From contig OY282606.1 of the NCBI GenBank assembly GCA_958298945.1, forward strand, positions 51,101,920 to 51,165,919: a DNA stretch of 64,000 bases, read 5' to 3'. A model generated the notes under the pieces. That model saw only the letters and a list, made by a program, of their open reading frames with translations. It did not search any database and was not told the origin of the DNA. This DNA comes from Atherix ibis (lineage: Eukaryota; Arthropoda; Insecta; Diptera; Athericidae). A program made the translations under genes and the position numbers. The first letter of the stretch is position 1; the number at the start of each line of letters is the position of its first letter. This document shows, piece after piece, positions 26,711 through 64,000 of this stretch.

Positions 26711-26773
26711 GCAAACAGAAAGGAAAATAATCACTTAAACTAGACGATTAAGCATTAATTTTTTTCATCTGAT

Positions 26774-33528: not shown

Positions 33529-33539
33529 TATTAGGTTAT

Positions 33540-38649: not shown

Positions 38650-38651
38650 TA

Positions 38652-41348: not shown

Positions 41349-41350
41349 TA

Positions 41351-41999
41351 CGAGGTCTGTTGTGGCGTTATGTTGGTACTCATATCTCTCACTTATGTTG
41401 AAAAGTTCGGCCATTTTGAATGTTCAGTTAATTTTTGACAGTTGCTTTGCTTGCACATGTTTTGGCTCGTCTTCGATTTTTGCTCAATTTCGACCAAAAA
41501 CAGAAAAAAGCGTGCCAAGTTCAGTCGAATGTGAAGGTTTTGCTTACAGTTTTCTTCGATTGCAGGGGCGTGGTGCACCGTGAGTTCTTGCCACAAGGTA
41601 CAACGGTCAATAAGGAATATTACCTGCAAGTTATGCGCAAGTTGCGCGAAGCAATCCGCCAGACACGCTCGGATTTAATGAAGAACAAAAATTGGCAACC
41701 AGCGTATTCCCCAGATCTGGCCCCCTGTGACTTTTTCTTGTTCCCGAAACTGAAGAGCCCCATGAAAGGACGACGCTACGCTACGATTGGGGAGTTAAAG
41801 ACGGCATCGAAGGAGGAGCTGAACAAGATAAAATAAAATGATTTTTTGAAGTGCTTCGAGGATTGGAAAAAATATTGCCACAAGTGCATAATATCTGGTG
41901 GGGATTACTTTGAAGGGAACAAAATAGATATTCATGAATGAATAAATAATTTTTGAAAAAAAAAACACAAAATTCGCGATAATTTTTGAACAGACCTCG
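41351..41999 (+). mobile_element. DD34D mariner copy M3, short deletion derivative
   Basis: CGAGGTCTGTT at the left end is the inverse of AACAGACCTCG at the right end; TA on both sides (41349..41350 and 42000..42001). At 649 bp it is about half the family length. The left terminal repeat is cut after 11 bp and joins the leader at TGTGGCGTTATG. Confidence 0.93.
41435..41940 (+). pseudogene. mariner transposase, three-deletion derivative (M3)
   Basis: From LLNFDQKQ the frame jumps to KKACQVQSNVKVLLTVFFD, losing the first Asp. It continues CRGVVHREFLPQGTTVNKEY, YLQVMRKLREAIRQTRSDL, then KNKNW joins QPAYSPDLAPCDFFLFPKLK, losing the second Asp. After NKIK a stop is followed by NDFLKCFEDWKKYCHKCIIS. 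The long frame hides that no DNA-binding domain and only one catalytic Asp remain. Confidence 0.92.
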
Positions 42000-42001
42000 T
42001 A

Positions 42002-42339
42002 AATCAAAAAAATTCATATAAAAATATGTACAATTTTTATTAATAAATTTTTTTAAAGAAATTATTAAAAGAACCACAAAATATTATCTAAAAATTTCAC
42101 TAAATAAATTAGAAAGATTTTGCAAGAATTTACAATTAATAGTCTTAATAAAAAAACAATTAAAAATGCTGAAATTTATTTCAAAAAAATCTACACAATT
42201 TCATATTTAAAATTATTTTAAAAATAACTGAATAATTGAAAGAAAAACTGTAAGAAATTGAAGTGGGTTTGTGTGGGGACGTTGTGAAAATAATTTTAGA
42301 AAGCAAAACTCATAATTAATATTTAGTAATTAATGGAGA
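42002..42339. other. AT-rich intron spacer
   Basis: Nothing recognised. Confidence 0.6.
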
Positions 42340-43450
42340 AATATTCGAATGCGTTGGGATTAAAATGTCCCGTATACGTATAAGAAAATAGATAACAAAG
42401 TCGATGTTGAACAAGATAATGAATATGAACACACTTAATTGATGATAGTGGTAGACGGAGCACTCCTCCCTGCACCTGATTCTATTCTGCCACCGATATG
42501 CTATCAGTATTTGTGTGGCACTTTAAGAGATGACACCGTAAATTGTTAGGGAAGAGAAAGCACATTCGTATTGGCGAAACTTGGTGTATACATAATCGTA
42601 AATATGCATAAGTCAGTTCAAGGGGAAGGGGAAAAATAGAATCAGGCAGGTACGAATATCTTTAATGATAAAAATTAATATATGCGATAGTATTTATGTG
42701 CATGCGTGCCAATTTATCTTTATTCGATAAGAAATTGTACAAATCCTACGAAAGAACACGTAAGCGGCGCAATCGACGCGACGGCGATAAGGGCGATTGG
42801 GCGACAAAATCGTTGGCAACGCGACGGTGACGACAATGGACGCGACGGTGATAACAATACTCTTCTTCTCGCTCCTTCTTAACTGATGATTACGCAAATA
42901 GTTGGTAACCGACGAAGAGAGAGGGACTCCTTTGCATCCCGAATCCTGTGCACGTTCAATTCCTGCAATCACACCTTATTTAATATTCGACTTGGCGATG
43001 CGGCACTAAATCAATAAAACAACATAATTTATTCAATTCCATTCGTTTCGATTCGATTCGGTCTGGTTCGGTTCGGTTTAGTTTCAGTTTTAGTTTAATT
43101 TTCCGTTCCAACTCTTTTGGGAATTTACTTGTGACTGGCCGTACCGTTTCAAACCGTTCCGCATACGTTTTCGTATCAGCATCGTTCACATAGCGTCTCT
43201 ATTCATACAATGCATAAACTGAAAGAGTAAGCGAGAAGGAGGAGCAAAAGTAAAATATCGAATAGTGAGTGTAAAAAAAAATGAGAGAGAAAATCAAGCA
43301 AAACGAAGACGAAGAAAACAATCAGATGGGATGCAGTAGCAACGGTCGGTATCCGTAAATCAGAGCACGTTGCGTTGAAAAGACCGTACGTTATATCACG
43401 GATCCGTTCAACGCGATTCGAAGCGATTTTTTCATATATAGTAGAATTGT
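42340..43450. promoter_or_regulatory. Less AT-rich island with GA and CGACGG motifs; candidate regulatory region
   Basis: About 1.1 kb of mixed composition without transposon ends. Contains GCGACGG repeats at about 42775..42850, GAGAGAGGG at 42917, GAGAGAGAAAA at 43284 and an (A/G)TTCG repeat. Opposite-strand frames (42694..42972, 42980..43189) follow the simple repeats and have no domain. GAGA-type sites and location suggest control DNA; unproven. Confidence 0.3.
43036..43097. repeat. Degenerate (TTCGA/TTCGG)n simple repeat
   Basis: ATTCGTTTCGATTCGATTCG followed by GGTTCGGTTCGGTTTAGTTT, grading into GTTTCAGTTTTAGTTT. Confidence 0.85.
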
Positions 43451-44322
43451 CACATTTGAACGTATTATAATAACTATTATTCCTTTCATATTTATCCTTT
43501 TCTTCACTTTCTCTATATAGTTTTTAAATAAAGAGATACGAATATCAGTATTTATGCTTGAATTGTTGCAATTTGTCTGTTTTTAAACTTCACGAACTGA
43601 TATTAAAAAAACAGGAGATAAATTTAAATGAACGAATGTAAATATATTATTTTGATTTTTTTCCTATTTCAGACGAGAGGTGGGGAGGGGGGTAGTGTGG
43701 AAGTTGAAGTTTTCATCAATTGTTGGTGCTACTCGTAATTAATTTGCATCTTAAGTGCAGAAATTTCAAGTGAACTCATTTTGGTTTTTCCTCCTATAAC
43801 CAAAATCCCTCTGCCACATCAGAAAATTTTTCTAATAAAGAAATTAAGAAATTTTAAGAAATTTAATTTTAAGGGAAGAAAGGGGGGGGGGTAAACAACA
43901 CACAATAAGAATGACTAGAGGATTTTTTGATGATATCTGAGAATGTTAATTGAAATCAGACAGAAGACAGATAAACGTACTTCACGTCTCTAGTTCTGGT
44001 TTTGTGTTCATATGCGCTTCTGGGTAAAATTCAAAGAACTTAATTGCCTCGTTGTACTATGTTGTGTGGTTTCTTCGGTTAAATGGAAATTTTCCTTAAT
44101 ATGCATCTTGTTTTCAAATAATTTATTACTATTTCTGTGATAAAATTTTAACAAGAAAATTTATGTAGAACTTTAAAAATTGACCAATTTTTTCCGTCTA
44201 TAAAATATAATACTTTTCAGCAATTTCATAATATTTCAAATAACAAAAAAAATATAAATAAACTTTCATTTCACATAAGAATAGAATTTTCCCTAAATTA
44301 TCATAGGAAATGAATTCACATA

Positions 44323-44339
44323 TCCCCTCCCCTCCCCCC
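44323..44339 (-). repeat. G-quadruplex-type tract on the Ubx transcript strand
   Basis: Plus strand CCCCTCCCCTCCCCCC; the minus (transcribed-sense) strand is GGGGGGAGGGGAGGGG, which can supply four G triplets in the pre-mRNA. Confidence 0.55.
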
Positions 44340-46661
44340 TAACAAATTAACCAAACAAAATTTGGTGAATTTTCCTTACCTTGTCCACCATTATTTGATA
44401 AAAAATAAAATAACACAAACTAATTGTTTATAAGAAAATGAATAAGAAATAAAAGAAAATATGTAATTTCCTCAAAATACCAAATTTTACATATAAAAAC
44501 GTTCTAAAATAATTAATTTTACTATAAAATAATAAAATAAGTGTCATTATTGGTAAGAGAATTATAAATAATTAATTGATGACAACAAAATAAACAAATG
44601 TTTTTAACTTGCTGATAGGAAATCGGTGGAAATAATAAATAAATTCGAAATTTATTAACGATGAGATGGGCTTTCCAAATATACAAAAAAAAATTGATTA
44701 CAATAAGTAATATTTTCTTGAATTTCCTTTTATGTAATTATTTTAATAAATTTTTATAATAAATGACATACTAAACTGATATTTCAAAAAGAATACTAAA
44801 AATAGTCATGAAATTATTGATAAAAAAGAAAATCAATAACAAAATAACGCTAGGAAAATATCCTAACGCAGTACGCGGATTCAATCAATTATTGGCAAAA
44901 TGCGTTTATTGGATGTCTTTTTCAACTTGTGTCACCCTGTTTATATTTTGTTCATTTTCTTATTGGATTTTTTTATTTTTTTTATTAGATTTATTGAATA
45001 ATTTCATAGATTGTTATCGTAATTTTGCTACCACTTTCGATATTGTTATTGTCATTACCATCGCCATCACCATCGCTATAAATGTCGCCGTTAACAAAGT
45101 AAACAACACTAAACAACATTTTTTTTTTTTTACATCATCCCCAATTGTTATCGCTTATAAACAATATGCATTACCTTTCCCACCATTTTCAATGAAACAT
45201 TTTACCTACAATTTTTTAGGGGAAAACGAACAGAAGAATAAACTTTTGGTATTAAAAAAAAAAAAATCCAGTTCTAAATTCGTACGTTTTTTTTTTCTTT
45301 GTTTGTTTATAATGCGAAGGGTAAGTTCTAGTGGTAAAAGTGCGTAATGCTAATAGTGAAGATGGGAATTCTTACCATACATAAAATTAGGGAACGAGAG
45401 GCGAATGAGATGAAAAACAAAACAGAAACGAATGCCAGGTAAACAGGTAATGAAAAATGTCCCCTTCCACAAGAAAATTGCCACTTTCTGATAAGAGGGC
45501 TGACAGTAGAAATGATAGAGGGAGAAACCGATGATTCCTATTACCCTTATTTTAGGCAATAAAAGAGAAAAACTACCATCCCCTAAAAGGCATATATATT
45601 TTGGACGTAAAAAACGAGAAAAATATGGACAGAAAAAAATAAACAAAAAATATCAAATTACGAAGACATGACAAGTTTACGCAGATAGAAATTAAGTTGC
45701 AAAAAAAAAAGTTTATTTAAAATTAAAAAAAAAAAAAATTATTAAAAAATTTAATAATAAATCAAAAAAGTAGAACAGCAACAAAAGGAAAACTGCCAGG
45801 CAAAGTTAAAAACAAGAAGAAAAGAATGCGTAACGAAGAAAACCGGAGAAAAGAGGAAAAAGTCTGTTTCCCCGCCTCTCTAGGGTGGTAACACACAAAA
45901 ACACTATCGCCAGTTAACGTACGAGTACATCTTTTTCTTTTCCTCTTCCTATACACATTGAGGGTGTTTCTTCACCATTTGATTTATTGCAGTTTATTCG
46001 TTCTGTATTTGTTTTCCTACTCTCTTTTGCCCATTTCTGTTTCCGCGTTCTTTAGAACTTGTTTTGCTGTTTTTTTCTCTCTTTTAACAGAACGCATTTT
46101 TCCTATTGTTTTAAAATATTTTTTTTTTTTTTACAATGGAACATATTGTTTATCGTGTCTAATCTTTTTACGTTCTTCCATTTTTACGTCTTCGCTTGCT
46201 TTGGTATGTCCAGTTTTTATTTTCGTTCCTGTTTCATATTTTTCGTTCCTATTTAAAGTACAATGTTGACATATAAGGAAAATTTTTGTTCTCTCCCGTT
46301 TCCTTTCAACAAAAAAAAAAAAAACGTTCACTTAAGAATTTTTTTTTTTTATTACTCCCCAATTTCGGCCTCATCATATTTTTTCTATTATGTTTCGTTT
46401 TTTTTTTATTTTACTTTTCAAACACTATTTTTTTTTTTTTTAAATTTATTGTTTGAATATAATTTGTTGTTTTTTTTTCTCGACTTATTTAAATTTATTG
46501 CACCCTAAAGGAATTATTGGGGAAGAAATTAAGGCAACACGAACAAAGACAAAACAAAATGTTCTGCTTAGAAAAATCGAAAGTTGTCGAAAAGAAAAGA
46601 AAAAAAGATGTAAAAAAAGAAAATAAATAATGTAGTCAAGAAGGAAGGGGCCGGCGGGGAA

Positions 46662-46673
46662 GGGGGGGGGGGG
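46662..46673 (+). repeat. Homopolymer run of 12 G
   Basis: Twelve G after GGCCGGCGGGGAA, unusual for the local composition. Confidence 0.85.
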
Positions 46674-48197
46674 AAGTGGCAAAGAGAAATAATGGCCTAA
46701 AAAAACTGGTAGAAATTTGCTTTCGTATATTTGCGAAAATTTATACGTTCAGAAAAGGAAGGAAAATCATCAAAATCAGGTGAGAGAGCAGTTGAGACAA
46801 AATTGTCATAGAAGAGTGTGAGTGATCATAGAACAAAAAGGCTGAAAAATGTTATATTTTGTTTTCGGGAGAAGAGCAGTAAGTACAGAGAAAGGGGGAG
46901 GTACTGAGAACTAAAATGGAGAGAAGGAGAGATAAATTATGAGTAAACGGAACAGGATATAAGATGATATAACGCAGTTTTATATACTATATACAGGTAG
47001 AGAGAGATATTAGAATTTTGTGAAATTCTTGAAGGTTGACTGGACAAGGGGTAAGAATGTGGTGGTGGCATGTTCCTCATTCCATATGAAAACAAATACA
47101 ATCGGAACAGAATTACGTCAAGAAAATAAGAAAGAAATTCAAGTCTTGAAGATTTATTACATTCGGCACGTTCCTGTTTTCGGGACAACAGAGAAGAAAA
47201 AAAAGTTAGAAAACAAGGCAAAAAAAAAGAGACAAACACAAGGAAAAGAGAAACCAAAAATAAATTAAACTCATCGAAAAGGTGGCTTACACCATCCATG
47301 CCCGAAAATGGTGATTTGAACGAGGTTTGATGCTAGAAAAGTGTTCGTGTTTATTTTTTTTTATTTTCTTATCAAGTTTTTTTCTTCTTTTTTCGTTTTT
47401 TTTTCTTTTTTGGCAGTAATTTTCCATATTTTTCTAATTTATTTTCATAAATTATTTTGAATAAATAATTTGTCATATGTCATTTTAATAAAATTTATTA
47501 CAAAACAACCCATATTCTCACATCTAATATTAATCTACGGGAAGTGTTTTTTTTCTTTTCTATTTTAATGCTTCTACAAATAAGAAAAAATTAACAGAAA
47601 TGAACATTAAAAAAAAAACGTTTCTTATTTTCTTCGATGATTTTTTAAGAATATTTTTAACTTCACTTTAAGGATCAACTAAAACTAAAATGGTGTCCGC
47701 ATCCACACCAAAACTAATGAAAATCTTCCATTTTTTGTCACAGCACAAAAGTAATCATTTTTTTGCAATAAATCTTATTTTAATAATCGATACTCTTTGA
47801 GGAAGGAAAAAAATATATTAAATAAAATGAATTACAAAAAATACTCACAATTCTCAATCTGAAAAAATCGATTGCCATAAAACCGAATCGACAGCAAAGA
47901 AGATGGAAATACAAAACCACCTTTAGAAAAAAAATAATCAAAAAAATGATGTCTCAAGAATGAAAGTTAGGAGAAAAAAGCAATAAAAATCGACGGGGGC
48001 TCTCTCTGCAAAAAAAGAAACAACAAAAAAAACAACAACAAATACCAGGCGTAGGCGGTTCTCAAACAGAAACCATTGAAATTCATTCGATTCGCGCGGA
48101 AATCTTGGAATCCATATTAGGACAAAAAAAAAAAATTGTTTCGTGAAGAGTGGTAGGTAGGCTTTGGTGGGTATTTTACCAGGTGTTTCTATGAGAA

Positions 48198-48221
48198 TGT
48201 ATGTGTGTGTATGTGTATGTG
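48198..48221. repeat. (TG)n/(TATG)n simple repeat
   Basis: GTATGTGTGTGTATGTGTAT, continuing GTGC. Confidence 0.8.
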
Positions 48222-48648
48222 CACTTCTGTGATGGAAAGTCTTAAGTGAGGATGTGTGACTGTGCTGTGGTGTGTGGGTGTACTTTTTCGCATGCATTAA
48301 TAATCCCACCTTCGCTATTGGAATTGTTATGTCAAAGCTGACAGACGACTAAGATTTATGGTCGCATGTAAATTATTTTTTTTATTTTTAGTGCCTTGCA
48401 ATATCTTTTTTTTTTAGGATAATATTGGGATTTATACAGTTTTTTGTGTGTTCTTTTTTTAAAAAATGTTTGGAAACAAAATTTTGCTTATTATTTTTTT
48501 TTTTAAATTTTAAAACGTTTTATTTATTTTTAATTTTTTGTAAACTATTTTTTTTACATATTTTTGTAAAATTTCAATACACTTTTTTGCTAGTGTTTGA
48601 AATTATTTGTAAATGAAATAATTTTTATTGTTTTTTTTTATAAAAATA

Positions 48649-49648
48649 GATGTATAAGCTTAAATCCGCTGTTTGGTCATAGATGGCGTGAGTGAGCGTA
48701 TTAAGCTACCATACTTTTTTTTAATGATTTTGACATCTGTCAACATTAATCAGTGCACATTGTCAGCAATTTCGTACAACAACATACATTTTTCCTTTGG
48801 TAATCATGTCTAGTTTTGTGCCAGAAAAAGAGCATATGCAGGAAACTCTGCTTTTCTACTTCAATTTGAAGAAATCGGCTGCCGGATCGCATCGAATGCT
48901 TATGGAGTCCTATGTTGACAGTGCTTTATCAGAAACAACGTACCGAGATTGGTTTCGTCGGTTCAAAGATGGCAATTTTGAGTCGGTTCAAAGATGGCAA
49001 TTTTGACTTGTGGGACAAGAAGCGTGAAAATCGACCTAGGAATGTTGAGCACCATTAATTGCAGGCTCTTTTGGACGAAGACGATACCCAATCGCAAAAA
49101 TTGCTCGCGGAGCAATTGGGTGTTATTCAACCAGCCATTTCCATGTGTCTGCGTGCCATGGGGAATATTGAAAAGATCGGAAAATGGGTGCCGTAGAAAT
49201 TAAACAATAGGCAGATGTAGCGACGCCAAAACACATGCGAAATCTTGCTCGCCAGACAAAAAAGAAAGTCGTTCCTGCATCGGATTGTGACAGGCGATGA
49301 AAAGTGGATATATTTCGAGAATCCTTGGAGATACTCATCTGGGAGATGCTACCCCACTCGGCTAATTCACCAGACCTGGCCCCTTCCGACTACCACCTGT
49401 TTTCGTTGATGGGCCGCGCGCTCGCTGAGCAGCACTTCGATTCTTACGAAGACGTCCGAAAATGGCTTGATGAGTGGTTTGCCTCGAAAGAGAAGGAATT
49501 TTTTTGGTGTGGTATCCACAAATTTCCGGAGAGATGGTAAAGTGTATAGATAGCAAGGGAAAGTACTTTGAATAAATTTGTTTTTGCTTTCTATGAAAAA
49601 AAAACATTTTTTGACTAAAAAACAGCGTATTTAAGCTTATACACCTTG
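48649..49648 (+). mobile_element. Mauritiana (Mos1-like) mariner copy C2
   Basis: Left GTATAAGCTTAAATCCGCTG and right (reverse complement) CAAGGTGTATAAGCTTAAAT; TA on both sides (48647..48648, 49649..49650). About 1.0 kb; same family and direction as C1 but with more of the middle kept. The left end lacks two bases compared with the right. Confidence 0.93.
48806..49575 (+). pseudogene. Mos1-like mariner transposase pseudogene (C2)
   Basis: Starts MSSFVPEKEHMQETLLFYFN, the proper family start. A 24-bp tandem duplication (TCGGTTCAAAGATGGCAATT... at 48958 and 48982) shifts the frame. Then LQALLDEDDTQSQK, LLAEQLGVIQPAISMCLRAM (helix-turn-helix), stops near 49196 and 49216, then LHRIVTGDEKWIYFENP (first Asp). 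A deletion joins this to EILIWEMLPHSANSPDLAPSDYHLF (third Asp), removing the second Asp. The C-terminal EEFF-like block (WLDEWFASKEKEFFWCGIHK) and ERW follow. Confidence 0.92.
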
Positions 49649-49650
49649 TA

Positions 49651-51846
49651 GGTCAGTTCTAATTGCAATTTTGAAGTTTTCGGTTCAAAAAAAATTGAAA
49701 AATATTAATAATGATAATTGTAATTTCTTCAAGAAAAAAAATAAAAATAAATTTATTATAAAAAACTACTGCAAAAAAAAATTTAAGATATACTTAAAAA
49801 GGTGACAACGAATCTTTGACAGCGGAAATCCAATTGGTAGCAAAAAAAAACAGTGAAATTGCAACAAAAAAACTAAAAATTTTGCTTTTTATTTTTAAAT
49901 TTTTTTAAATTAGTTTTTTTTTATTTTAAGAAAATTATAATTTAGAAAAATTGAAAAATACACAAACTGTAACAAAATAGATTACTTTTAATTCCATTAT
50001 TTAAAGTTAGTATCAAATATCGCCCAATATACTGTTTAATAAATAATAAAACTAAAAACTACTTATTTTTAATAAATATCATTTCTATTTTCATTCAATA
50101 CTTTTCGATTCATGCAAACATTGATTAAAAACATTTCCCAATTTTCAAAATTCTAAAAACATCTACAAAAATTAAAAAGAATTAAAACTAAAAAAAATTT
50201 CTAATTGACAAATGCAAATAATCCAATTAATTTATTATATTTTTTATAGGCCGATTAATTATAATTTGATATTAAAAAATTCTCAATTAAAAATCAATTA
50301 ATTAATTTTTTTTTTAGAGATAAACAAAAATTACCTTAATCCATTTTTCTTACTTCTTATTATTATTACTTTTACCCATCAGATCGTGCATTTTTATGAC
50401 TTGTAAAAATTGAAAATTAAAAAATTATTAATTTCAACAAAAAATTAATAAAAACCAAAAACAGAAAAGAAAATTATTATCAAAATAAAAACTGTAAAAA
50501 AATTATAAGAGAATTAATTAGAAAATAAATAAAACAATAAAAACTAAAAATAAAAGGGGAACAGTGGAAATGAATTGTACAAAATTAATTAAATCAAGAG
50601 AAACTATTTAAAAATGAAACAGAAACTATCAATTAAAAAATTTTTTTTGCGTGAGTATTTATTAAATTTGGAGTATTTTTAAATTTTATTTGTAATTTTA
50701 TAAATTATTTTGTGAGTATTTTTTGTTCTGTTTAATATTTTTGTGAGTGTGCGCAAAAATAAAAAATGTCCAAAAAAAAGTATTTTATTACCCGAAACAA
50801 AATAATATAAATTAGAATAAAAAATTTAAAGCTTAAAATTTGATTTTTAAAAGAATAAAAAGAAAAAATCTTGTAAAAAAAATATGAGAAAATGTGTGTG
50901 CATTTCTATTAAAAATGTTTTTTTTTTAATTTTTTTTTCTAAATTTTTATTAGTTTTGTTCTTATTTCGGAAATTTCGCTTTAAAATTTTCGAAGCGAAT
51001 ATAAAAAAAAATTTTAAAAAATGTCTCAACTAAATTATGTTAAATTCAGTTGAATTTAAAATTATTATAAAAAGAAAAACAACCTAAATTTTAATTTAAA
51101 TTATTAATTTTCTATTAATAAGTAAGTTCTTCAACTATATTATTCTACAATACAAAACAAGATTAAAAACCAAAAAAAAAAAAAAACAGAAAGAAAATCA
51201 AAATTCCGTAAACAAAACACAAAAGCTTAAAAATTCATCCTAAACTTACTTTTCTTTCTATAAAAAAAAAAAACCAAAAAAAAAATGTAAACACTCAAGA
51301 AATTCCTTCTATTTGCATAAATTTTCTTTGCCCTTAAAAGTGCAATTTTTTTTGTATGTGCTTGTGTGCAAATGTATTTACTTATGTTAGTGTGTGTATG
51401 GGTGAGTATTTATTTATGTTTTTAAAAAATTGTTTCCCTTATTTACGGATTTTCTTTGTCCAACAAAAAAAAATCCATAAATTTTAATGAAATATTGTCA
51501 AAAAAAATCAATAAGAAAATGTAAATTTCGATAAAATCAAAAAAAAATTAACTGTCAAATTTTCAGAAAATACCAAAATAATTTTGGGACAAACTTTCAA
51601 AAAAAAAAAAAAAAAAACGAGGACTGAATAAGGAGACGACATGAGATACAGAAATGAAACGAATGGAAATGAAATGAGAAATCGAAATTATAAAATTATA
51701 AAAATCATTAAATGTAATAATTCATATAAAAAAAAATGAAGGGAAAAAATGGTAATTGAAATTTTTGATTTCTTGAAAAAAATAAACTAAATTAAATTAT
51801 AACAAAATAAAACAAAAATTAACAAATAATAAATAAATAATTTTCG
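49651..51846. other. AT-rich intron just downstream of mII
   Basis: Over 2 kb of A/T homopolymers, including an A17-type run near 51600 and a TATG/GTGTG stretch at 51355..51420. No gene; frames are Lys/Asn/Phe-rich. Confidence 0.65.
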
Positions 51847-51856
51847 ACTTACCTAG
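51847..51856 (-). promoter_or_regulatory. 5' splice site of Ubx mII (TAG|GTAAGT)
   Basis: The minus strand reads CTAG|GTAAGTCG at the 3' end of the micro-exon, a near-perfect insect donor. It is stronger than the regenerated donor GTAAGA at the upstream edge. The two donors compete: use of this one keeps mII, use of the regenerated one removes it with the downstream intron. Confidence 0.88.
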
Positions 51857-51903
51857 CCAGTCTGGAAGTAATGAGCCCGCAAGAGATTCTGAATATCTCT
51901 TAC
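51853..51903 (-). CDS. Ubx: Ultrabithorax micro-exon mII (51 nt, internal alternative exon)
   Basis: Seen: on the minus strand a 51-nt block lies between a polypyrimidine tract ending in TTACAG and a donor TAG|GTAAGT. Read from its third base it is open and encodes KRYSESLAGSLLPDWL, with two bases of a codon at the start and one at the end; the other two frames hold stops. Known: in Drosophila Ubx this 17-residue segment, ending in a split Gly, is micro-exon mII. It lies between the Exd-binding YPWM motif and the homeodomain of this nuclear Hox transcription factor. Type I isoforms carry mI and mII, type II only mII, type IV neither, so the exon tunes the spacing between cofactor motif and DNA-binding domain. 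The length of 51 nt, a multiple of three, keeps the frame when skipped. Identity rests on recalled protein sequence, but 16 matching residues plus exact exon ends make chance unlikely. Confidence 0.95.
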   Translation of the reverse strand, partial: VRDIQNLLRAHYFQTG

Positions 51904-51930
51904 CTGTAAGAAAAAAAAATTAAATAAAAA
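51898..51930 (-). promoter_or_regulatory. Recursive 3' splice site (ratchet-type) of Ubx mII
   Basis: On the minus strand a run of about 20 mostly T residues leads into TTACAG, and the exon then starts with GTAAGA. The result is (Y)nCAG|GTAAGA, the consensus of a recursive splice site: the acceptor is used first, and the joined product then carries a fresh donor at the junction. This is how mI and mII of Drosophila Ubx are known to be removed. The sequence supports the arrangement directly; its use in this species is inferred. Confidence 0.85.
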
Positions 51931-52217
51931 AATGAGAAAAATTAAAAATTTACTAATAAAAGAAAATTTATAAAAACAAATTTAATTGATATTTTTTAAA
52001 AAAAAGCACAAAAAGAAAACCGAAAATTCTTAAGCGAATAAGAACAAAGTATCAGTAGGCAAATAGGATATGGGATAAGAAAAATGCAAAAATAACTGAG
52101 GAAAAATAAAAAAATAGCAAATATGAATTGCCAAAATGGGATAACGAACGGGTTATTATTAGTCAGAAAATCAGCTTATGTAAATTACAATGAAGAGACT
52201 CACTAAGGAGGCAAATA

Positions 52218-52304
52218 TCGGGTTTTTCAATAGCAACTTGACAATTTTGAGTATTTTCATATTGAAAATACTCAAAAGTGTCAAGTTGCTATTGAAAAAC
52301 CTGA
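52218..52304. mobile_element. 87-bp near-perfect palindrome flanked by TA (MITE-like)
   Basis: Arms of about 43 nt (left begins TCGGGTTTTTCAATAGCAAC, right ends GTTGCTATTGAAAAACCTGA) with only two mismatches and almost no loop, flanked by TA at 52216..52217 and 52305..52306. TA flanks and the GGTTTTTCAATAG-type start resemble Tc1/mariner termini, loosely those of the rosa-like family here. It looks like two terminal repeats fused with no interior. Confidence 0.75.
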
Positions 52305-52783
52305 TATTTAATAGAAAGAAGGTCTCTAATATCATATAAAAAGATTATTTTTTTAATATTAAAAAAAAAAAACAATAAAAGAGCTACCAAAGGGCCTTAT
52401 CATCGTGGCGCTGCATCGTGGCGGCCCCTGGCTCATGTCGTAGAGACCTTACATAAAAAAACAAATAAACAAATAATACATTAAAATTTTCAAATTATTT
52501 ATTTCATCATATTTTTCTTTTCGGTCTTTTTATACAATTTAACCATAGAAAATAGAAAATATATGATTTTAAATATTATGGTTTAATGTTAATTATTGCA
52601 AGCTTAAAAAATAATAATTTCAATAGAAATGAAATATTTTTTATCTGCTACCATTTTCCATATTTTCTCAGTAAGGAATTCTTTTGATGAATTTTCAATC
52701 TTGTTTTTATAAAAAAAAAAAAAATAATATTAAATTAAATAAAAAAAAGGAAATTAACAAAAAAAATTCTTATTAAATTTGCA

Positions 52784-52936
52784 AAAAGTCATTTTTTTTA
52801 ATAAATTTGATAAAGTATTTTTTGGCCCATCCCTTCTTTTTTGGCCCATCCCTTCTTCTTTAAAAGATCATTAAAATAGCAAAAAGTAATTTTTCTTAAT
52901 AAATTTGATATACTACAATATATTTTTTGGCCCAAA
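52784..52936. repeat. Tandem duplication, unit about 95 bp
   Basis: GCAAAAAGTCATTTTTTTTA and GCAAAAAGTAATTTTTCTTA, both followed by ATAAATTTGATA and later TTTTTTGGCCCA. Within the first unit TTTTTTGGCCCATCCCTTCT is itself repeated in tandem at 52818 and 52838. Confidence 0.85.
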
Positions 52937-53103
52937 TTTACGATGCAATTAAAAACCATTTTTTTCTATTTAATATTGATTTTTTCTTTTTTCTGGTTAC
53001 GTCATTTGAATTTGTCAGGTGATGAAAATCGACCAGACCCTATCTATCACGTACTATCTTTAAAGTCTCGTATCTTATCGTAGTAGCGCCTCTTATCATA
53101 TCA

Positions 53104-53135
53104 CCTCGCATCGCATCGTATCGTATCGCATCCCA
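53104..53135. repeat. (CATCG/TATCG)n simple repeat
   Basis: CCTCGCATCGCATCGTATCG followed by TATCGCATCCC. Confidence 0.85.
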
Positions 53136-54174
53136 TACACGTATACAAATGAAAATCATCCAAAGCTTGGTAAAGTCGTCGGTCATACCACTCTACGTCC
53201 ATTGATGATTTCTCATTGTCAGTGCTGTTGTTGTTGTTGTTATTGTTTGTTATGTCATAAAACGCATAAGTGGCATAAAATTGGTCATAAAAGTTCTTAA
53301 ACGATCATACGGAGACGCATTAGTGAATGTTTTTAGTGGGTCGTAATCTAAATAAATAGCATCATCTTTAATGATTTATTGAAAAACTTTTTTTTTGCGC
53401 GGCCATAAAAACTGTTTTTTTTTGTCATACTAAATTTAAGATGAACGGGAAAAAAGAGCAGCGGAAAGAGCAAGCAGAAAGGAAGAAAAATACTAGAGAA
53501 AGAGATGATAACAGAAGGCAATTATATTATGAGCTAAAAGTACACGTAACAGAATTTAGGCACTTTTTTTAAGAGAGAAAAAGAGGGAACGAATGATATC
53601 GAAATGAGAATAAGAGACGAATGTGCAAAAGAGAAGAATTTTTAGGAAGAGGAAAAGTAATCATCATCGCTTATGAGCAGAAATTATTTATTTACATAAG
53701 AGAAAATTATTGGCCTTTTTTTCGTATTGTACATTATCGCATTATGCTATTATTAACAAAGCCCCACATATAAAAAATTATATTATTTATTGTACGAAGG
53801 AAAAATTTAAGCCAAAAATAATATCAACAATAATAGTAATTAAAATAATTTTTGAAAAAAATAATAATAAAATAATTATGGAGGAAAAAGTTCTTGTCTA
53901 AATTTTTATTATCATTATTTGCTTAATTGAACAAAAAAAATTTTATTTTAAATTTTAATTTCTGCAAAAAATTTTGTAAAATTTAAGTTTATTGGAATTT
54001 TTTTTCAAATTCTTCAAATTCTTTATATAATCTTTTAAATTTTTTTGCTTAAAATTTCTTTGTCTTTTTTTTAAAATTTTTAAGTATTGTAGTTTTTCTA
54101 TTTTATACATATTTTTTTTTAGAATATTTTTATTTTCTTCTCGTAACACATGATATAAAAAAAAATTTTAAATA

Positions 54175-55252
54175 CAAGGTCTGTATTCAGAAAGTATTGC
54201 GAATTTTGAATTTCCGCGGGTTATGTTTTTTAGATTTTTCGTGGCTAACGCCACATAACTGTTGGTACTCATATTTCTCACTTATACTGACAAGATCGGC
54301 CATTTTGAATGTTCCGTTAATTTTTGACAGCTGCTTTTGGTTGCACGTGTTTTGGCTCGTCTTAGATTGTTTGCCCATTCCAAAAAAAAATTGATCAAAG
54401 AATCTGTGTCAAATTTTGTGTACAAAACAAAATTATTTGCGCGGACGCATTTCGAATGTTGACTGTGGCATATAGTGAAGCTCTTTTGGACCGAAGCAAC
54501 ATTTATCGGTGGTACAGAATGTTTTCAGAGGTCCGAGAAGATGTGAATGACAAAAAGCGTACCGGACGCCCGAGCACGTCAACAACAGATGAAAACATTG
54601 ATGAAGTGAGGAAAATAGTATTGGCCAATCGTCAAATCATCGTTAGAGAAGTTGCTCAGGACTTAAACATATCGATTGGCTCGTGCCATTCGATTTTTAC
54701 CAATGGTTTGGACGTGAGACGGGTCGCCGCGAAATTCGTACCAAAATTGCTCAATTTCGATCAAAAACATGTGAAGGTTTTGCTTACAGTTTTCTTCGAT
54801 TGCAGAGGCGCGGTGCATCATGAGTTCTTGCCACAGGGTAGAACGGTCCATAAGGAATATTACCTGCAAGTTATGCAGAAGTTGCGCGAAGCAATCCGCC
54901 AGAAACGACCGGATTTGTGGAAGAACAAAAATTGGCTTTTGCCATTTTTGGCCAAAAACAACATACTAATAATGCCGCAGCCACCGTATTCTCCAGATCT
55001 GTCCTCCTGTGACTTTTTCTTGTTCCCGAAACTGAAGAGCCCCATGAAAGAACGACGCTACGCTACGATTGATGAGATAAAGACGGCATCGAACGAGGAG
55101 CTGAACAAGATCACAAAAAATGGAAGAAACATTGGCAAAAGTATATAATATCTGGTGGGGATTACTTTGAAGGAGACAAAATAGATATTCATGAAAAAAT
55201 AAATAATTTTTGGAAAAACACAAAATTCGCAATACTTTTTGAACAGACCTCG
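54175..55252 (+). mobile_element. DD34D mariner copy M4
   Basis: Left end CAAGGTCTGTATTCAGAAAG and right end CTTTTTGAACAGACCTCG are inverted repeats; TA precedes the left end (54173..54174), and the right TA is mutated (ACATA follows). It has the most complete N-terminal region of the family in this window, but two internal deletions. Confidence 0.93.
54456..55148 (+). pseudogene. mariner transposase with intact N-terminus, two catalytic Asp deleted (M4)
   Basis: A continuous 230-residue frame. It has IYRWYRMFSEVREDVNDKKR, GRPSTSTTDENIDEVRKIVL and REVAQDLNISIGSCHSIF (paired helix-turn-helix DNA-binding domain), then AAKFVPKLLNFDQKH. A deletion jumps to VKVLLTVFFDCRGAVHHEFL, removing the first Asp. 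NKNWLLP joins FLAKNN, removing the second. YSPDLSSCDFFLF keeps the third. The end is cut (NGRNIGKSI). It could encode a DNA-binding but inactive protein if transcribed; no evidence of that. Related full-length proteins are about 340 residues. Confidence 0.92.
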
Positions 55253-55254
55253 AC

Positions 55255-55899
55255 ATAAAAAATATAATCCAGAAATATATTATTACAAATTAAATGCTTT
55301 CCAATTTTTAAAATATATAAAATATTTCAGTCAGTATGAAAAGAAAAACATTGGAGAATATTTTATAATAAAAAAAAATTATTAGTGATGAATTTTCCGA
55401 CTAAAAGACTCGCAAAGCTTAAAATAAAATGTGGTGGGTTAATCATCTTAAAATACAATCGGAAATCTAAACTTAGAAAAGCTCAATTGATTATTACAGT
55501 GTTAAGGTAGACAAAAAGTGGTACACTATAACAGTTTTTTCAATTTCTATAGTATTAAATTTAAACAACCAAACCTAAACTTCACGTTAGAAATTAGATA
55601 CAATTCGAATCCGTCTAACTATTGTACAATTGATAATTTATTAAATAACGTGTGTGCGTTAGTCCTGAACAGTTTCAATATTGATTAAAAAAATATTTAC
55701 GTTGTAAATAAATTTGGAAAATAAACTGTCTTTGCTGCTACTGGTAATATGAAAATTAATTTCAAAGACGAAAAAACAAAAAGACTCATCGTTTACTAAA
55801 TTTCATTAATAAAAAAACAAAAAAACTGCCTAATTAAAGGAAACTGGAGAAAAAAAATAGATTTTTTTAGAAAACACAATGGATTTTTAACCAACAAAC
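55255..55899. other. AT-rich intron, nothing recognised
   Basis: No gene or element identified. Confidence 0.6.
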
Positions 55900-56400
55900 T
55901 TTACATAATCTAAAGTGCTTTACATAATTCGGCTTCGAATAGCCGACAATGATCCATAAACTCCACACTATTTACCGCACATCACATATAAAAACCACTA
56001 TACCAGCGCGCCAACATATTTTCATATTATCATAAGGTAAATACACGCGTTTCCATGTAATCTTATCAATTTAAATGATGAAATTTCTAGCACAGGTGTA
56101 TGCGTATGTCGTTAGACATTACAAAATTAATGGCAGAATAACATAATTGCATAATTTACAATACATGAAATGTTTATGCTAGAATAAGTGGAGGAGCAAA
56201 GAGGATTGTTGCCCAAACACTTCTCTTGTATGAAATGTATGCTGGCAACGATTATACCGGCAAACGCAAAAGAGAGACGGGCAATGTGAACGACCAACGA
56301 GCGGGACTAGTGTACCCATAAGGCGCTTACCAAAAATGATTTCTTTTTTTTCGCCGGTTATTATTTATGTGCACAATCCCATTTCTCATCTGCTACTTTC

Positions 56401-56431
<31 letters not shown>

Positions 56432-56860
56432 GTTATCGCAATCAAAATTGTTGGACTTTATTTTTCTCGCTGGCATAAATTCCGATGCGCGAAAAATAGC
56501 TAAAAAAGAAAAACCCATTTTGGATCTTTCTAAACACAAACGCACATTTGCAAAGCAAAGAAAAACACAACTAACGGAGCACCACTAAAGCAAACCGACA
56601 AAAAAGAAACTTCTAAACAGCTTCTTTCGTATTAGTTGAAATGAGATAGAAGAATGAGGTATGGGCGAAAAACCGCTAATGCGAATAAAGCAGAAAGTTT
56701 TTGTTTTGTGAATGAGCGGAAAAGAGTCAGCGCCAGAAACTGAACGAGTAACAATAAGTGAGTGGAAGACTTATTACACGTACGAACATGATACTCGTAG
56801 ATAAACTACACTCGGCTGGCTGTAACTAATATTGTGCGAATATGCGTTAGGGCCGATCGA
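55900..56860. promoter_or_regulatory. Less AT-rich island with a GA/TC repeat; candidate regulatory region
   Basis: Mixed composition without transposon ends. A (TC)11 run at 56410..56431 gives (GA)11 on the Ubx strand, a possible GAGA-factor target. The 73-residue frame at 56367..56588 runs through the repeat and is not convincing as a gene. Confidence 0.3.
56410..56431. repeat. (TC)11 microsatellite
   Basis: Eleven TC units, continuous. Confidence 0.9.
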
Positions 56861-59689
56861 TCTTCTCAAATGTGTTCCTGTTCCAATCCGGCTGAATTTT
56901 TTCTGTGTTCTCTCATTTCATTTGTTTCTCTGTCGCACTTTCTAACTAAACTCATTCTGTTGTTTGTTTACTTTATAGGCTGCTGTTTTTTCTCTTTTAA
57001 TTCACTTGTATTTATGGCTATTATTATTATTATTATTGTTAGTTTTTCCCATTCTAGTTATTTTCCTCTTCTTTTTAGTTCTCTCTTTGATTGTTGTTTT
57101 CCTTCTATTGTTAAGAGTTTTCCTCTTATCGTTTATCTCTCCTTCTCGACTATTTTGAATTGGTTTATTATCAAAACTCTTGTTTTTGACGTCATTAAGC
57201 CATTTGTCTTTCTATTTTTTTATTATTTTTCCATCTTACACATTTTCTTTTATAATTTATTATGCTTTTTTTTTTTTAAAAAAAAATATTTTAGTCAAGT
57301 TAATAAATTCCATAAAGACAAAACAAAAAAAAATGAAACGAATAATTTTTGTTAAAATAATTTTTCTTAAGAAAAAAAATACGATTTTCATTTAAAGATA
57401 AAAATTAATATTTTTGTTTTATAAGCGATTTTTTCATTTAGGTAGATAAAAATAAATTTTGAAGTCCATAAAACCATAATTTAAAAAAAAAAATTGATCT
57501 TAATTATTTAAAGAACACTAATAATTTTATAAATTCTATTGTAAAACCAGCAAAATAATTGTTGCTGTCAACCATAAAGAAGAATTTTGGTTTTTCGCCA
57601 AAATTATCCAAGAATTTTTTTTTTCTAATAAAAGAAAATTTCAGATAAAAAAAAACACAAAAATTGTTAATTTTTTTTTGGTTATAAGAGGGGAAAAAAT
57701 CAAAATGGGAAATTAATTAAGCTCTATAAGACCTAAATGCATAAATGTTATTAAAACTTTTATAAAAGGTAAAATTATGTGAAATGTTAGTTGAAAATCT
57801 CTGTTTTTTATGTGAAAATTTCATTTTGTTTTTGAAAATTTTCTGTCAAATATTCTTTGTCTTATTTATTCTCATATTTTTAAAAAAAAAAAATGTATGC
57901 TCTCTTTTTCCTTTAAATAAAGCCAATTTTTTTCCCCCAAATTTATCATTTTTTCATTAAAATTTTTTACTAATTTTTTTCCAATTAAAAAAATTATTCC
58001 CTTACAAAGTAATGCCAAAAAAAAATATAATTTTTCTCTTAATTTTATTATAATTTATGTCGAGAAGAAAACGTAATAAAAAAAATTTAGAAAATGTATC
58101 AAAATCAGTTTTGTTTTGATGTCATTCAAAACTAGAAAAACTTGTAAATTATGCAACAACGTAAAACCAAATTTATGCTGTACCGAAAGAAAAAAGGCAA
58201 ATCAAAAAAAAAAAAAAACTTAATAAATAAAAAGATAAAAACCTAAAAATCTATTTGAGTATAAAGAAAAACAAAACTCACAAAACGACAAAATCCTTTC
58301 TGTTCGTGACCTAAAATAAAAATAAAAGAAATAAGAAAAGAAAAAAAAATGTCGGTGTTTTATTTTCCAAATAAAAGGTGATGAGTTTCATTAATAATGC
58401 TACTAATTTATGGGCTGATGAGTTTTTAGCATTTTGTTAATGGGCCCCCTAAAAATATTGTGTACGCGCACACTGAACCCTGTTTTTTGTTGATGTCGTT
58501 GATTGCGATGAAAATCAACAATGGCGGCCGGCCGAAGGTCAAAAACTAAAATTCTTTATTAACTAATAAGTGTGATACAGTCAGCCTCGAAACCAATGTT
58601 ACAAAAATTAAAAAAAAAAGAAGCTCCAAAAATGACCTATATTTCAGAGCTTTCAAAAATAGTCGAAAAGGAAAAAAAATGGTAAGGGAATGGGAGAGAA
58701 GAAAAATTTTTAGGTGTGTTTTTTGTGTAGTTTTAGTTATTTTTCGACGTTAATTGAATTCGAAGGCAACTGGCAACTGGAATTGCTATATAGACGAAAA
58801 AAAAAAACAAAACAGAAGCATGCCCAAAAATCCACCCTAACCACCACAAACAGTGCGTTTCAGAATGTGGAGCAGAAATGGGTGAACATAATCGACGCCC
58901 ATAGAGCCATAGGAACAGAAATCAATTACATTTAATCAATTCCTAAAGAAGCCATTAAGATCATAAATAATCCCACACCACAAAATATATTTCGTTATAG
59001 CGTCTAATAATTTCCCATATTCGCTAACCACCATTTTCTAATCACAGTTAAATTAGGACAATTGATAAATTGTCGAGTTTTTGGTCAGTTTTGATCCGAT
59101 TTTCTCTCTCTATGCTCTTAAATGTTGTTCTCTTATTGAATGGAACTATTAGTATTAGTAAAAGTAATTCTGATTTTTCTTTTAAAATTTATATTTATTA
59201 TAAAAAAAAGTTCAAATTTATTTTTCTTATATATGAAAATTTTTTTAATAGCTCATTTTGGGAACTTAAAGCTTTTAAATAAAAAATCTATGCCAATTTT
59301 TGGTACCAATGTCTTGAACAAAATTTATTTTGTTAGTAATTTACGATTATAAATATTATAAAATTCTAAGAAAATAATTTTGAAAGTTAAAAGAAAAATG
59401 CTACAAACTTTTGGAAATTACCATACACAATAAAATAATTACTGCTGATTTTACTTTTTACTTTTTTTCTAAGGGAGTTTAAGTGTCAAGACAGTTTTTT
59501 TTTGAATTTCTCTTCTCCTTTCGATTGCATTTTTCAAATTATTTTTGTTCTTTTAAAATTCATCTTCTTTCAATTTTATTATAATTTTCTTTGTTGTTTT
59601 TTCAAAATTGATTTGAACAAACAAAATCTTTTGCAGAATCTATTTATTCAGAAAATACAAATATTGACTCATTACCGAAATGTGCTTAA
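56861..59689. other. AT-rich intron, no gene recognised
   Basis: (ATT)n at 57019..57037. The 173-residue frame at 56834..57355 is Phe/Ser/Leu/Ile-rich over T-rich DNA and has no domain. A small mixed piece at 58440..58540 (GGGCCCCCTAAAA, AATGGCGGCCGGCCG) stands out. Confidence 0.6.
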
Positions 59690-60400
59690 GTGTCATAGCA
59701 TATAAATCTCGCAGCCGAACTAATTTAAATAAATTCGCGTAAAAGAGAATTCAAAAAGATCAGAGCTCAAAGTAAAGAGTACAGCGATTGCTTGACGTCG
59801 GTGTTTTCTCTTTCAGGCTCTTACAGTCATTAAAGACGACTGGTTGGAAAGTTTCACTGGTAAAGGCTTAGGCAACAGAGGAGGAGTAAAGGATTAGGTC
59901 AGATACTTTTCTTTCCCTCTCTTTATCAAATGATGATGTTATGACTCTGGAAAAATACATCTCATATTTTTGGTTGCGTTCGCATTCGTGTATGCTCTTT
60001 GCGGTCGGTGGCAGATTTTCAACCGCAAATTGAGTGCTATTGTAGCGAATAAAGTCAGATGTGTGCATTACTAGGAATTGGTTCGGTACGTCTTCTTATA
60101 CAAAAGAAAGTTCACAGTGCCTTGCATAAGAGAAAGACGTCCGCTGGGAAAAAGGAATGCAGCGAATTTTCCTTAATTATGAGCACTTTGGAAACGACAG
60201 GGCAATTCGTTTCGCGTACTTTGAATTAATATGCAAAGACGACCAAGAAAATTAGTTTACAACAGAAACAGTCTGTTACACGTACTCGTACGAGAAATTC
60301 TCCGCCTCATTTTACTATTTATACACCATCGCAACGCTTAGGCACTATTAATCATAACTATATATTGTAGTAATAGTGGTAATAGTATAAACAATAGAAA
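59690..60400. promoter_or_regulatory. Less AT-rich island, candidate regulatory region
   Basis: About 700 bp of mixed sequence without transposon ends or domain-bearing frames. Contains CTCTCTTTATC and GTCGGTGGCAG pieces. Regulatory role inferred only from composition and position. Confidence 0.27.
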
Positions 60401-60679
60401 AGGTAATACTAATCCTTAAGCAACAAGATAAAGAGTATCTGGCAAGAACTCTTGTGCAAAACAGTTAAAGCTTTTAAATATTGTAATTTGTTATTAACAA
60501 AATGTAATTTTTTTTATTTTTTTTATTTTTGTTCTCATAAACTAATTAAAAAAAAATTTTATATTTATATTTTTGAAAATCTCACAATTTTCTTTTACAT
60601 GACATCCTTAAAAGAAGATTTTTTTGGTAATGTTTTCGTAGGCAACAATAATGCTTGACACCATATAGAGACTATATTA

Positions 60680-62070
60680 GTTTTTTTTTTTTCATTTATC
60701 TGCAACAATAAATTTATTGTAACAAGCAAATTTCCATAAGATTTTAATTTACAATCTTGTATCTTGGATTGTAAGGGCTGGAATTTAGAATCGAGGGTCT
60801 TGGATTGTAAGGCCTCGACACGATAGGAATTGGAACGTTTCGTTGTACCCAAAAGTTTAATTCCATATGTCCAAATTGGTTTTTAGAAGCTTACTTTTGA
60901 TTGTTAGTTTCGACCGTTTGTCCAAAAGTCTAAGAAGTTGTAGGTAACGCCTGTTAGCTTCAATTCTGTTTAGTCTAGTATGTGGATTCCATGTTAATCT
61001 TTTGTCCAGGTAAAGTCCCAAATAATGCACTTTATCATATTGTGGAAACATGTTGCTATTAAGGTATAAAGGGGTAGGTTTTCCTTGACAAAGAGTGAAA
61101 GTAATGTGAGCACTCTTCTGTTCATTTATCTTCACTCACCATCTCTTAAGCCAGGAATAAAGGTTGTGTATATGAAATTGTAAATTGTTGGAAGCTATGT
61201 CAGGATTTGTAAGGGTAGGAAGTATAACCGCATCTTCTGCATAAGTAGCAATGATAGTATTAGGATCAGCTGGGATGTCATGGGTATAAATATTATATAA
61301 AATGGGACCAAGAATAGTGCCTTGTGGGACTCCTGCTAGAATAGGATATATTTCCGAGGATTCTGAGTTAATTGCAAATTGGAAATGTCATTGGGAGAGA
61401 TATGAATTTATGATAAGGTAGTACGTTGAAGGAAGAAAGCTCTTTAGTTTCCAGAGCAGTCCAGAATGCCACACACACGATCAAAAGCTTGGGAGATATC
61501 TAAAAATACTCCTGGGCAATACTCTTTCCTCTCAATACGATGACATTGCTAGATAGTGTGGTGTTCAGATCGGAAGTCAAATTAGTGATCAGGAATAACT
61601 TTTTCATTAACTAGGATTGGGTAGAGTCGTTTTAGTAGGAGTTTTTCAAATATCTTACCAAGAATTGGTATGAGGCTGATAGGTCTATAGGAGGAAGGAT
61701 AATTAATGGGTTTATTTGGTTTAGGAATCATTTTAATGACAGTAAATTTCCAGAGTAAAGGAAAATAGGTTGTGTGGAGGATACTATTAATTATGTATGT
61801 AATTAAAACTAAAGCTTATCTGGAAATTTGCTTTAGAATAAGAGCTGTTATTAGATCATAACCAGGAGGGTTTTTATTGGGAAAGCGCAGAATAGTAGAT
61901 TTAATTTTGAAATTTTGTTTTTTTTTTAAATTTTGCGAGGAAGACTCATTGGACTGGGAACATTAGTTATTCGATGATTTTGTTAATATACGATTTTTTG
62001 TCTTCTATATCGGTTTTTTCTTTGTCGGGGAGAACGTTGAGAATATATCTTGGGATAACAATGACGGAGG
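60680..62070 (-). mobile_element. Jockey-clade LINE fragment L4, with poly(A) 3' end
   Basis: Best-preserved LINE copy. On the minus strand, from right to left: DKEKTDIED (upstream linker, about 62030), LRFPNKNPPGYDLITALIL (fingers, about 61850), VPQGTILGPILYNIYTHDIP (about 61290), ATYAEDAVILPTLTNPD (active-site box, about 61220), then the thumb. The 3' end has AATAAA followed by GATAAATG and a 12-A tail (T run at 60681..60692). Endonuclease and gag parts are absent, so it is a 5'-truncated insertion. Confidence 0.9.
60857..61135 (-). pseudogene. Jockey reverse transcriptase remnant (thumb region)
   Basis: The frame reads KINEQKSAHITFTLCQGKPT, PLYLNSNMFPQYDKVHYLGL, YLDKRLTWNPHTRLNRIEAN and RSKLTIKSKLLKTNLDIWN. 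HITFTL, YLGLYLDKRLTW and KSKLT..SKLL are typical of Jockey-clade reverse transcriptases just after the active site. Upstream parts sit in other frames because of indels, and the active-site YADD reads YAED. Confidence 0.9.
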
Positions 62071-62594
62071 GGAGGTATATTAGTTAAATATAATTTTTAC
62101 CCCGCATAAGAACGCCTGAATATTCTCTTAAATTACTGGAGAATTTTCCAATTTTAAACCAAAATTATTGTCAACAATTAATAAATAATTCTACTTGTTT
62201 TTATTGTTAATAAAAAATTCCATTCTTAAAAATTTTACATGTTCTGTATTTCCTGATTAAAATTTTTTTCTAAAGATGTCATTTTTAGTGTTAATTCCTT
62301 TCAGTTTATTAGATATCTACAAGTAAAATATAGTAACAAGTAGGTTTAAATGATAGTAGTGATTAACGTAAAGGATTTCTTCTGCTGACATGTGCAGACA
62401 TAAATATAAGTTCAGATTCCTTATTTTAACGAATCACGCAACCAGTAACGATTAAGTCGTGGGCGAATGTTTCTAGGGAAAGAAGTAAAGGATAACTCTC
62501 GAACAAGGAATTTAATATGATTAAAAAAACACAATCATACACGTATTATGGATAAAAGTGATTTTAACATTACGATGAATAACATTATTGCGGA
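62071..62594. other. AT-rich intron, nothing recognised
   Basis: May include worn 5' sequence of L4; nothing can be claimed. Confidence 0.5.
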
Positions 62595-63010
62595 TATAAA
62601 ATGGATCATCGACAATTTTAAAAAATATTTTTGACTAAAGGGAATGGATTTGACGGGATTTGGAAGGCTTAATATAGCCCTAGATTTGTAGTCCATAAGT
62701 CCATATTGGTTTCAATAGGGCTTTGTATAAAATTACTTTTTTTTTTCTATTGTAAGTTTCAGGCCTAAGTACCGAACTTCAGAGCATTGTGATATTTCAC
62801 TGCCAGTAAGATAAATGGGTGAACATGACTCATGCCGAAGAGTAAAAGTTATGTGAATAGATTTAGGTTCATTTTCTTTTATTATTTACTTGCTTAACCA
62901 CTTCTGGAGGCATTAGATTAAAATTTAGAGAATTTCGAATGCATGTCGAGAATGTTTACTAGATTTCAGAATAGCCAAGATTAGTATATTCTAATCAAAG
63001 AAGGATTTTT
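62595..63010 (-). mobile_element. Second Jockey-clade LINE family fragment L5
   Basis: On the minus strand about 62768..62860 encodes IHITFTLRHESCSPIYLTGS followed by EISQCSEVRYLGL, the same thumb region as in L4 but clearly a different family. A 3' untranslated stretch to its left resembles the other copies only loosely (ATCGACAATTTTA). Short and inactive. Confidence 0.75.
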
Positions 63011-63469
63011 GGGGCAGAATAGAATATCGTATGTATAAATGTTGTAGAGACTCATTTTTGTACTAGAAGCGTTAAGATAAATTAATTTTATTTAAAAAAA
63101 AAAGAACGTCCTTGTATTATAATATAACAAAAAAAAAATTGCCAAAAAGCATATCTTTTTTTTAAATAATAAAATTAAATAATTAGAAAATTAATTTATG
63201 AATTAAAATAGTATATCTATTAAAATTCTCTACATTTGACAAAACCAAAATTTTCATTCGTTTTTTAACATAAAAAATAATTTTTTTTATTTTTTTTTTA
63301 TTTTACTAATTATTTTTTCTAAATAAATACTTTTTTTTAGATCTCAAAATTTATTCTTTTCTCAAAGACAAAAACCTACAATATAAGGTGGACAAAATTT
63401 AAAAATTGCATTTTAAAAAGTAAATTTAAAAAAAAACTAGTACACATTTTTTCAAATTTCTAGTTTTAT
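63011..63469. other. AT-rich intron, nothing recognised
   Basis: Homopolymer-rich spacer. Confidence 0.6.
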
Positions 63470-63730: not shown

Positions 63731-64000
63731 AATCAAAAGTTAACGTTTTTTGCTTTTAGCTTTTTGTCTGGTTGAAAATACAAATAAAAAGAACTGATTA
63801 CACTTAAACAAAAGAAAAAAAGAACACATAGAACTATGGAGAATTTAGTAAGAGGTGGTAACAGAAAGAAGTTGATAGAAGGGTTGAAAGTAAAATTGGA
63901 AATAAAGGGAAAATCAAGAATTCAATGAGACATGATAAAATTTATGCTCTGGAAAATACTTCCATATCGTTGTCACTATCCCTTTTATACCAGCGACAAT
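63731..64000. other. AT-rich intron at the window edge
   Basis: Nothing recognised. Confidence 0.5.

Follow-up and report, generated by a model that had tools for sequence, protein, structure and literature searches.

What can a single putative exon of 51 nt tell about an anonymous stretch of fly DNA, and how might so short an exon be spliced? The stretch analysed here (the window) comprises 64,000 nucleotides of Atherix ibis, C2:51101920-51165919, where contig C2 measures 121.9 Mb in an assembly of 669.8 Mb and 144 contigs. A sequence-only reading had described one minus-strand exon with strong splice sites in it, had identified this with the mII exon of Drosophila Ubx, and had placed the whole window inside a giant Hox-gene intron. 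The exon was positioned exactly: it occupies 51853..51903 (C2:51153822-51153772, minus strand), tblastn with fly Ubx proteins points to the same place, and both predicted splice sites are near consensus. On its upstream side lie the acceptor and pyrimidine tract, ATTTAATTTTTTTTTCTTACAG (51904..51925, minus strand; 79% pyrimidine across 19 nt), and on its downstream side the exon's own donor, TAG|GTAAGT (51847..51852, minus strand).

The minus-strand reading across 51903-51853 is TTTTTTTTTCTTACAG|GTAAGAGATATTCAGAATCTCTTGCGGGCTCATTACTTCCAGACTGGCTAG|GTAAGTCG. The exon is phase 1 at both ends and encodes (G)KRYSESLAGSLLPDWL plus split codons; with one base borrowed from the upstream exon, its translation is GKRYSESLAGSLLPDWL. 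The choice of phase matters because translation from exon base 1 ends in a stop. The peptide had been given as 17 residues long. The peptide itself is right, but it has 16 whole residues, and a count of 17 includes the split glycine. In six frames of the window, the next-best match to the 16 residues scores 26, compared with 84 for the exon. Additionally, a pyrimidine-tract acceptor followed by GTRAG and, 15-160 nt further on, by AG|GTRAGT is present at one place in the window, and none of 200 dinucleotide shuffles contains it. Two leads were dropped on the way: the AG|GT score alone as an exon test, by which a plus-strand site at 27589 scored above mII, and a second match of our first acceptor-donor pattern at 5088-5099, where a purine-rich stretch precedes the site.

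A peptide search of the window found no mI, YPWM, homeodomain or Ubx N-terminus. Orthology was therefore settled in the flanking genome, which we searched on both sides by tblastn with four fly Ubx proteins. The sequence-only reading had staked its case on a minus-strand homeodomain exon to the left of the window, and this exon is present from C2:51005102 downwards, about -96.8 kb relative to the window (TTTAG|GTACAAACGG; GTNGLRRRGRQTYT...ISDQN, stop). The YPWM exon expected to the right was also recovered by tblastn; it is Ubx exon 1, with its coding part at C2:51256013-51255440 on the minus strand (MNSYFEQSGFYGHPHQATG...YPWMAIAG) and ending at C2:51255440 in the donor CAG|GTGAGT. Thus, mII is separated from the YPWM exon by 101.6 kb upstream and from the homeodomain exon by 148.7 kb downstream, all three sharing strand and contig, and the window does sit inside a giant Hox-gene intron, which measures 250,337 nt between these two exons. 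The joined products are open: exon 1 plus the homeodomain exon gives 292 aa, and the product with mII gives 309 aa. In the PDB, the piece from YPWM to the end is matched best by the Ubx chain 4cyc. One exon of 51 nt can thus locate an anonymous window of 64 kb.

Ten homeodomain matches follow one another at C2:49.64-52.51 Mb, all on the minus strand, with the window at 51.10-51.17 Mb. We take them to be, in order, lab, pb, zen, Dfd, Scr, ftz, Antp, Ubx, abd-A and Abd-B; the identities of Antp, Ubx and Abd-B were checked against the PDB. The Hox cluster on C2 is apparently unsplit, with about 0.58 Mb separating the homeodomain of Antp from that of Ubx.

The A. ibis gene can be compared with that of Drosophila, for which we cite excerpts of three papers. 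According to these, the 16 residues, the length of 51 nt, the phase and the position between YPWM and homeodomain are all shared with Drosophila Ubx mII (PMC8605326, PMC6110457, PMC4989106), as are the acceptor abutting a donor GTAAGA and the second donor at the exon end. Unlike Drosophila Ubx, whose intron is 73 kb long (PMC6110457, PMC8605326), the gene described here has an intron of 250 kb, has neither a recognisable mI nor an open b element, and has its splicing predicted from sequence. A search of the intron over its full length, in the three sense frames, gave no mI peptide (best score 29, against a self score of 87). Past the exon 1 donor, translation yields GE before a stop, leaving no open b element; therefore, the Drosophila b element cannot come from that donor. 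In P0001, the b element reads GECPEDPTK. As both mI and an open b element are missing, two coding isoforms are predicted, compared with the larger Drosophila set. These absences, the 250-kb intron and the putative recursive donor at the exon start are additions to the sequence-only reading.

Ubx is the gene in which recursive splicing was first described in flies, and Hatton et al. are said to have reported in 1998 that the Drosophila microexon mII (m2) is involved in it. We propose that mII of A. ibis probably works as an expressed recursive-splicing exon, lying between the Ubx YPWM and homeodomain exons. Its acceptor, TTACAG|GTAAGA, abuts a donor, and the computed junction with exon 1 recreates CAG|GTAAGA, which is the layout of such an exon. 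The putative recursive donor GTAAGA is made up of exon bases 1-6 (51898..51903, minus strand), and its use is suggested by that of Drosophila mII. In our model, exon 1 would first join the mII acceptor, forming the donor CAG|GTAAGA at the exon-exon junction. If this recreated donor is chosen, mII would leave with the next stretch of intron and the 292-aa Ubx would result, whereas if mII's own donor TAG|GTAAGT is chosen, the 17-residue insert would be kept between YPWM and homeodomain, giving the 309-aa Ubx. The insert would change the spacer between YPWM and homeodomain, as between Drosophila Ubx isoforms. We infer each splicing step, the choice of isoform and the function by analogy. According to PMC8605326 (in excerpt), mI and mII of Drosophila act as recursive exons: a donor is recreated at the 5' end of each once the upstream exon has been spliced to it, and whether this donor or the exon's own is chosen decides between skipping and inclusion. 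The excerpt of PMC6110457 describes removal of the Drosophila Ubx intron in four steps.

On an approximate scale of donor strength, mII's own donor scores 7.49 and the recreated donor 6.95. The two donors are thus nearly equal, which fits inclusion of mII in at least part of the mRNA. In Drosophila, the recreated donor was stronger than the exon donor in 7 of 7 expressed-exon reporters (PMC8605326, in excerpt); here, by contrast, the own donor is slightly ahead on the approximate scale. This is the order that would suit mII as a conventional exon, cassette or constitutive, in which the starting GTAAGA is never a donor and any skipping is direct. It also suits such an exon that the start GT AAG encodes the conserved (G)K, as coding constraint alone could keep GTAAGA; the K after the split codon is present in 39 of 39 mII-bearing proteins. 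We nevertheless consider a conventional exon quite unlikely, because the recreated CAG|GTAAGA is near consensus and because its Drosophila counterpart, which starts in the same way, is described as recursive (PMC8605326, in excerpt). It is extremely improbable that Ubx mRNA of A. ibis has ceased to include the 51 nt and that these survive as a conserved relic: the very same peptide is found in flies whose Ubx records contain mII, frame and phase are intact, and the splice sites are near consensus. A recursive exon that is sometimes kept is the reading we prefer.

Protein records give some idea of the age of mII. A D. melanogaster Ubx sequence, scored on the stretch from YPWM to homeodomain, served as the query and returned 35 proteins, the named ones mostly ultrabithorax; three protein searches, the last contributing the best 120 of 4515 matches, yielded 127 proteins. 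The exact 16 residues occur in 29 of these 127. Among the named ones most are fly Ultrabithorax, and a few carriers are labelled hypothetical, uncharacterized or abdominal-A homolog (P0025, partial). This identity, together with the flanking Ubx exons on the same strand and contig, bears out the orthology to Drosophila mII that had been claimed. When S or T was allowed at two places and L or I at the end, the peptide was found in 39 of the 127 proteins. Among the carriers with a name are mosquitoes, midges and a sand fly, as well as a hoverfly, a long-legged fly, muscoid flies and drosophilids; no carrier among the 127 bears the name of an animal other than a fly. In lower flies, the peptide reads ...[ST]LLPDWI with GANG after it, and in higher flies and the window ...SLLPDWL with GTNG after it. 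In a partial set of literature, judged by titles and abstract openings, no report of mII outside higher flies was found, which we do not take to mean that none is in print.

The mI peptide occurs in 19 of the 127 proteins, and the 18 named ones come from Drosophila, Scaptodrosophila, Glossina, Cochliomyia, Stomoxys and Haematobia, six genera that we take to be all Schizophora. Similarly, the excerpt of PMC4989106 has mI recovered in Musca, Glossina and Ceratitis, and not in mosquitoes, beetle or bee. Because the named mI carriers are higher flies only and mII is also found in mosquitoes, midges and the sand fly, mII looks older than mI among the proteins fetched. The hoverfly protein P0024 carries a different insert in the mI interval, GKINTIQQELHNSYN; a search of the A. 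ibis intron for this hoverfly insert (KINTIQQELHNSYN) did not find it (best score 33, against 74).

A tree built from 24 Ubx rows without the linker leaves the A. ibis protein at a fork that it does not resolve, shared with Hermetia, Condylostylus and two unnamed rows. Two supported groups exclude the protein: Eupeodes plus Schizophora (support 94/97), and the one that unites mosquitoes, midges and sand fly (92/93). Among the best 120 of 4515 matches, the closest named full-length one is Hermetia illucens isoform X2 at 84% identity, and an unnamed partial protein, P0066, reaches 86% identity over 62%. This one gene would place the species outside the higher flies, in the lower Brachycera. The locus extends the sequence hallmarks of Ubx recursive splicing beyond the higher flies, to an intron over three times the length of the Drosophila one. 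The kind of exon and its mechanism were already known; what is new is this longer instance, along with an idea on the origin of mI that arises from the rest of the intron.

Across the whole intron, YAG|GTRAG after at least 70% pyrimidine occurs three times in sense (mII, C2:51195569 and C2:51068740) and once in antisense. Window positions 51904..64000 (minus strand) belong to the part of the intron from the ratchet-like site at C2:51195569 to mII, which sits between exon 1 and mII; positions 1..51852 (minus strand) belong to the part, bounded by the tblastn matches and the intron scan, from mII towards the ratchet-like site at C2:51068740 and the homeodomain exon. Together with mII, the two extra sites would cut the 250 kb of intron into pieces of roughly 60, 42, 85 and 64 kb. 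Intronic ratchet points need a cryptic exon (PMC8605326, in excerpt). Downstream donors are found 113 nt from C2:51195569 and 88 nt from C2:51068740, each weaker than the recreated donor; on the same approximate scale, the recreated donors score 6.95 and 8.95 and the downstream ones 2.51 and 2.25. As the recreated donors are far above these weak downstream donors, constant skipping is predicted, and the short cryptic exons at both sites would always be left out. The pyrimidine tract, YAG|GTAAG and the weaker downstream donor are features that the extra sites share with Drosophila intronic ratchet points (PMC8605326, in excerpt).

How often should such sites arise by chance? The null rate was taken from the antisense strand, the flanks and simulations. 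The flanks beyond the gene (102,362 bases when both strands are counted) contain no occurrence of the same pattern, and in order-5 simulations as many sites as in sense arose in 2 of 40 runs with the 70% threshold and in 1 of 40 with stricter ones. A composite pattern that adds GTRAGT 25-206 nt downstream keeps all three sense matches, including mII, and does not keep the antisense one; its mean in order-5 simulations is 0.033, with one site in 4 of 120 runs and two in 0 of 120. It is possible, although we think it less probable, that C2:51195569 and C2:51068740 are chance matches and that mII alone divides the intron. The looser pattern has its antisense match in 250 kb as well, and with equal rates both extra matches would be sense with a chance near 0.17 (arithmetic on lengths). 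Additionally, the real-sequence controls, antisense 250 kb and the 102,362 flank bases, are small and weak by themselves, and the composite criterion was tightened to its final form after the extra sites had been seen. Against chance stand the composite counts and simulations, and the fact that no further copy of either extra site turns up within the 303-kb region (close to the second site, a piece of 60 nt is repeated), whereas the antisense match adjoins a many-copy repeat. We retain both extra sites as candidate ratchet points.

One intronic Ubx ratchet site is described for Drosophila in the excerpts of PMC6110457 and PMC8605326, compared with two predicted from sequence here. One of these, between exon 1 and mII, falls in the interval that holds mI in Drosophila, and its frame soon meets a stop. 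This ratchet-like site in the mI interval, and the different insert of the hoverfly, suggest that mI may have grown from an older ratchet point. We put this forward as a speculation that we ourselves doubt: the ratchet frame of the Ubx intron would predate mI, the mI interval of A. ibis would hold a bare ratchet point whose cryptic exon is non-coding, and in higher flies mI would have arisen once the cryptic exon gained an open, frame-keeping reading frame. If true, new Hox protein modules would be born from sites of intron removal. It raises a testable question, namely whether such exons grow from pre-existing ratchet points.

Other Ubx records vary in the same region. Past the mII donor (51852 downwards, minus strand), the frame in the window runs for 18 more residues after DWL and then meets a stop. 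Similarly, P0037, P0038 and P0039 (Ubx of Culicoides, Condylostylus and Stomoxys isoform X5) read past the mII donor to a stop, without a homeodomain; these could be annotation artefacts or a homeodomain-less isoform. Ubx of other arthropods (P0040-P0050, P0108; beetle, sawfly, wasps, bee, ant, tick, shrimp, horseshoe crab, locust and bug) has unrelated short inserts between YPWM and homeodomain, several of them starting with GK or GE, which could derive from alternative donors or recursive-type exons.

It had been said that mII is the only true exon in the window. This may hold, as it fits the scan of open reading frames: among 17 frames spanning 110 aa or more, 15 were compared with Pfam (the other two being 20097-20486 and 56834-57355, both plus strand), with four matching transposase-type domains and 11 matching nothing, and shorter exons were sought by peptide only. 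ARAGORN found no tRNA in the window, and no Rfam family reached its gathering threshold there. Mariner-type transposase fragments lie within repeat families at 1505-1940, 8315-8894, 41435-41850 and 54456-55148, and also at 19959-20541 with 48741-49604; Pfam Transposase_1 is matched at 1588, 41435 and 54456, and a Mos1-type HTH at 20015. The Ubx intron therefore holds several related element copies. A three-copy repeat family is found at 5445-6053, 13340-14186 and 61009-61907, and the last copy, judged by eye, resembles a LINE reverse transcriptase on the minus strand. Finally, 16863-17779 and 32424-33324 form a long inverted pair, 93-94% complementary in three arms of 181-386 nt and about 15 kb apart, probably two oppositely oriented copies of a single element.
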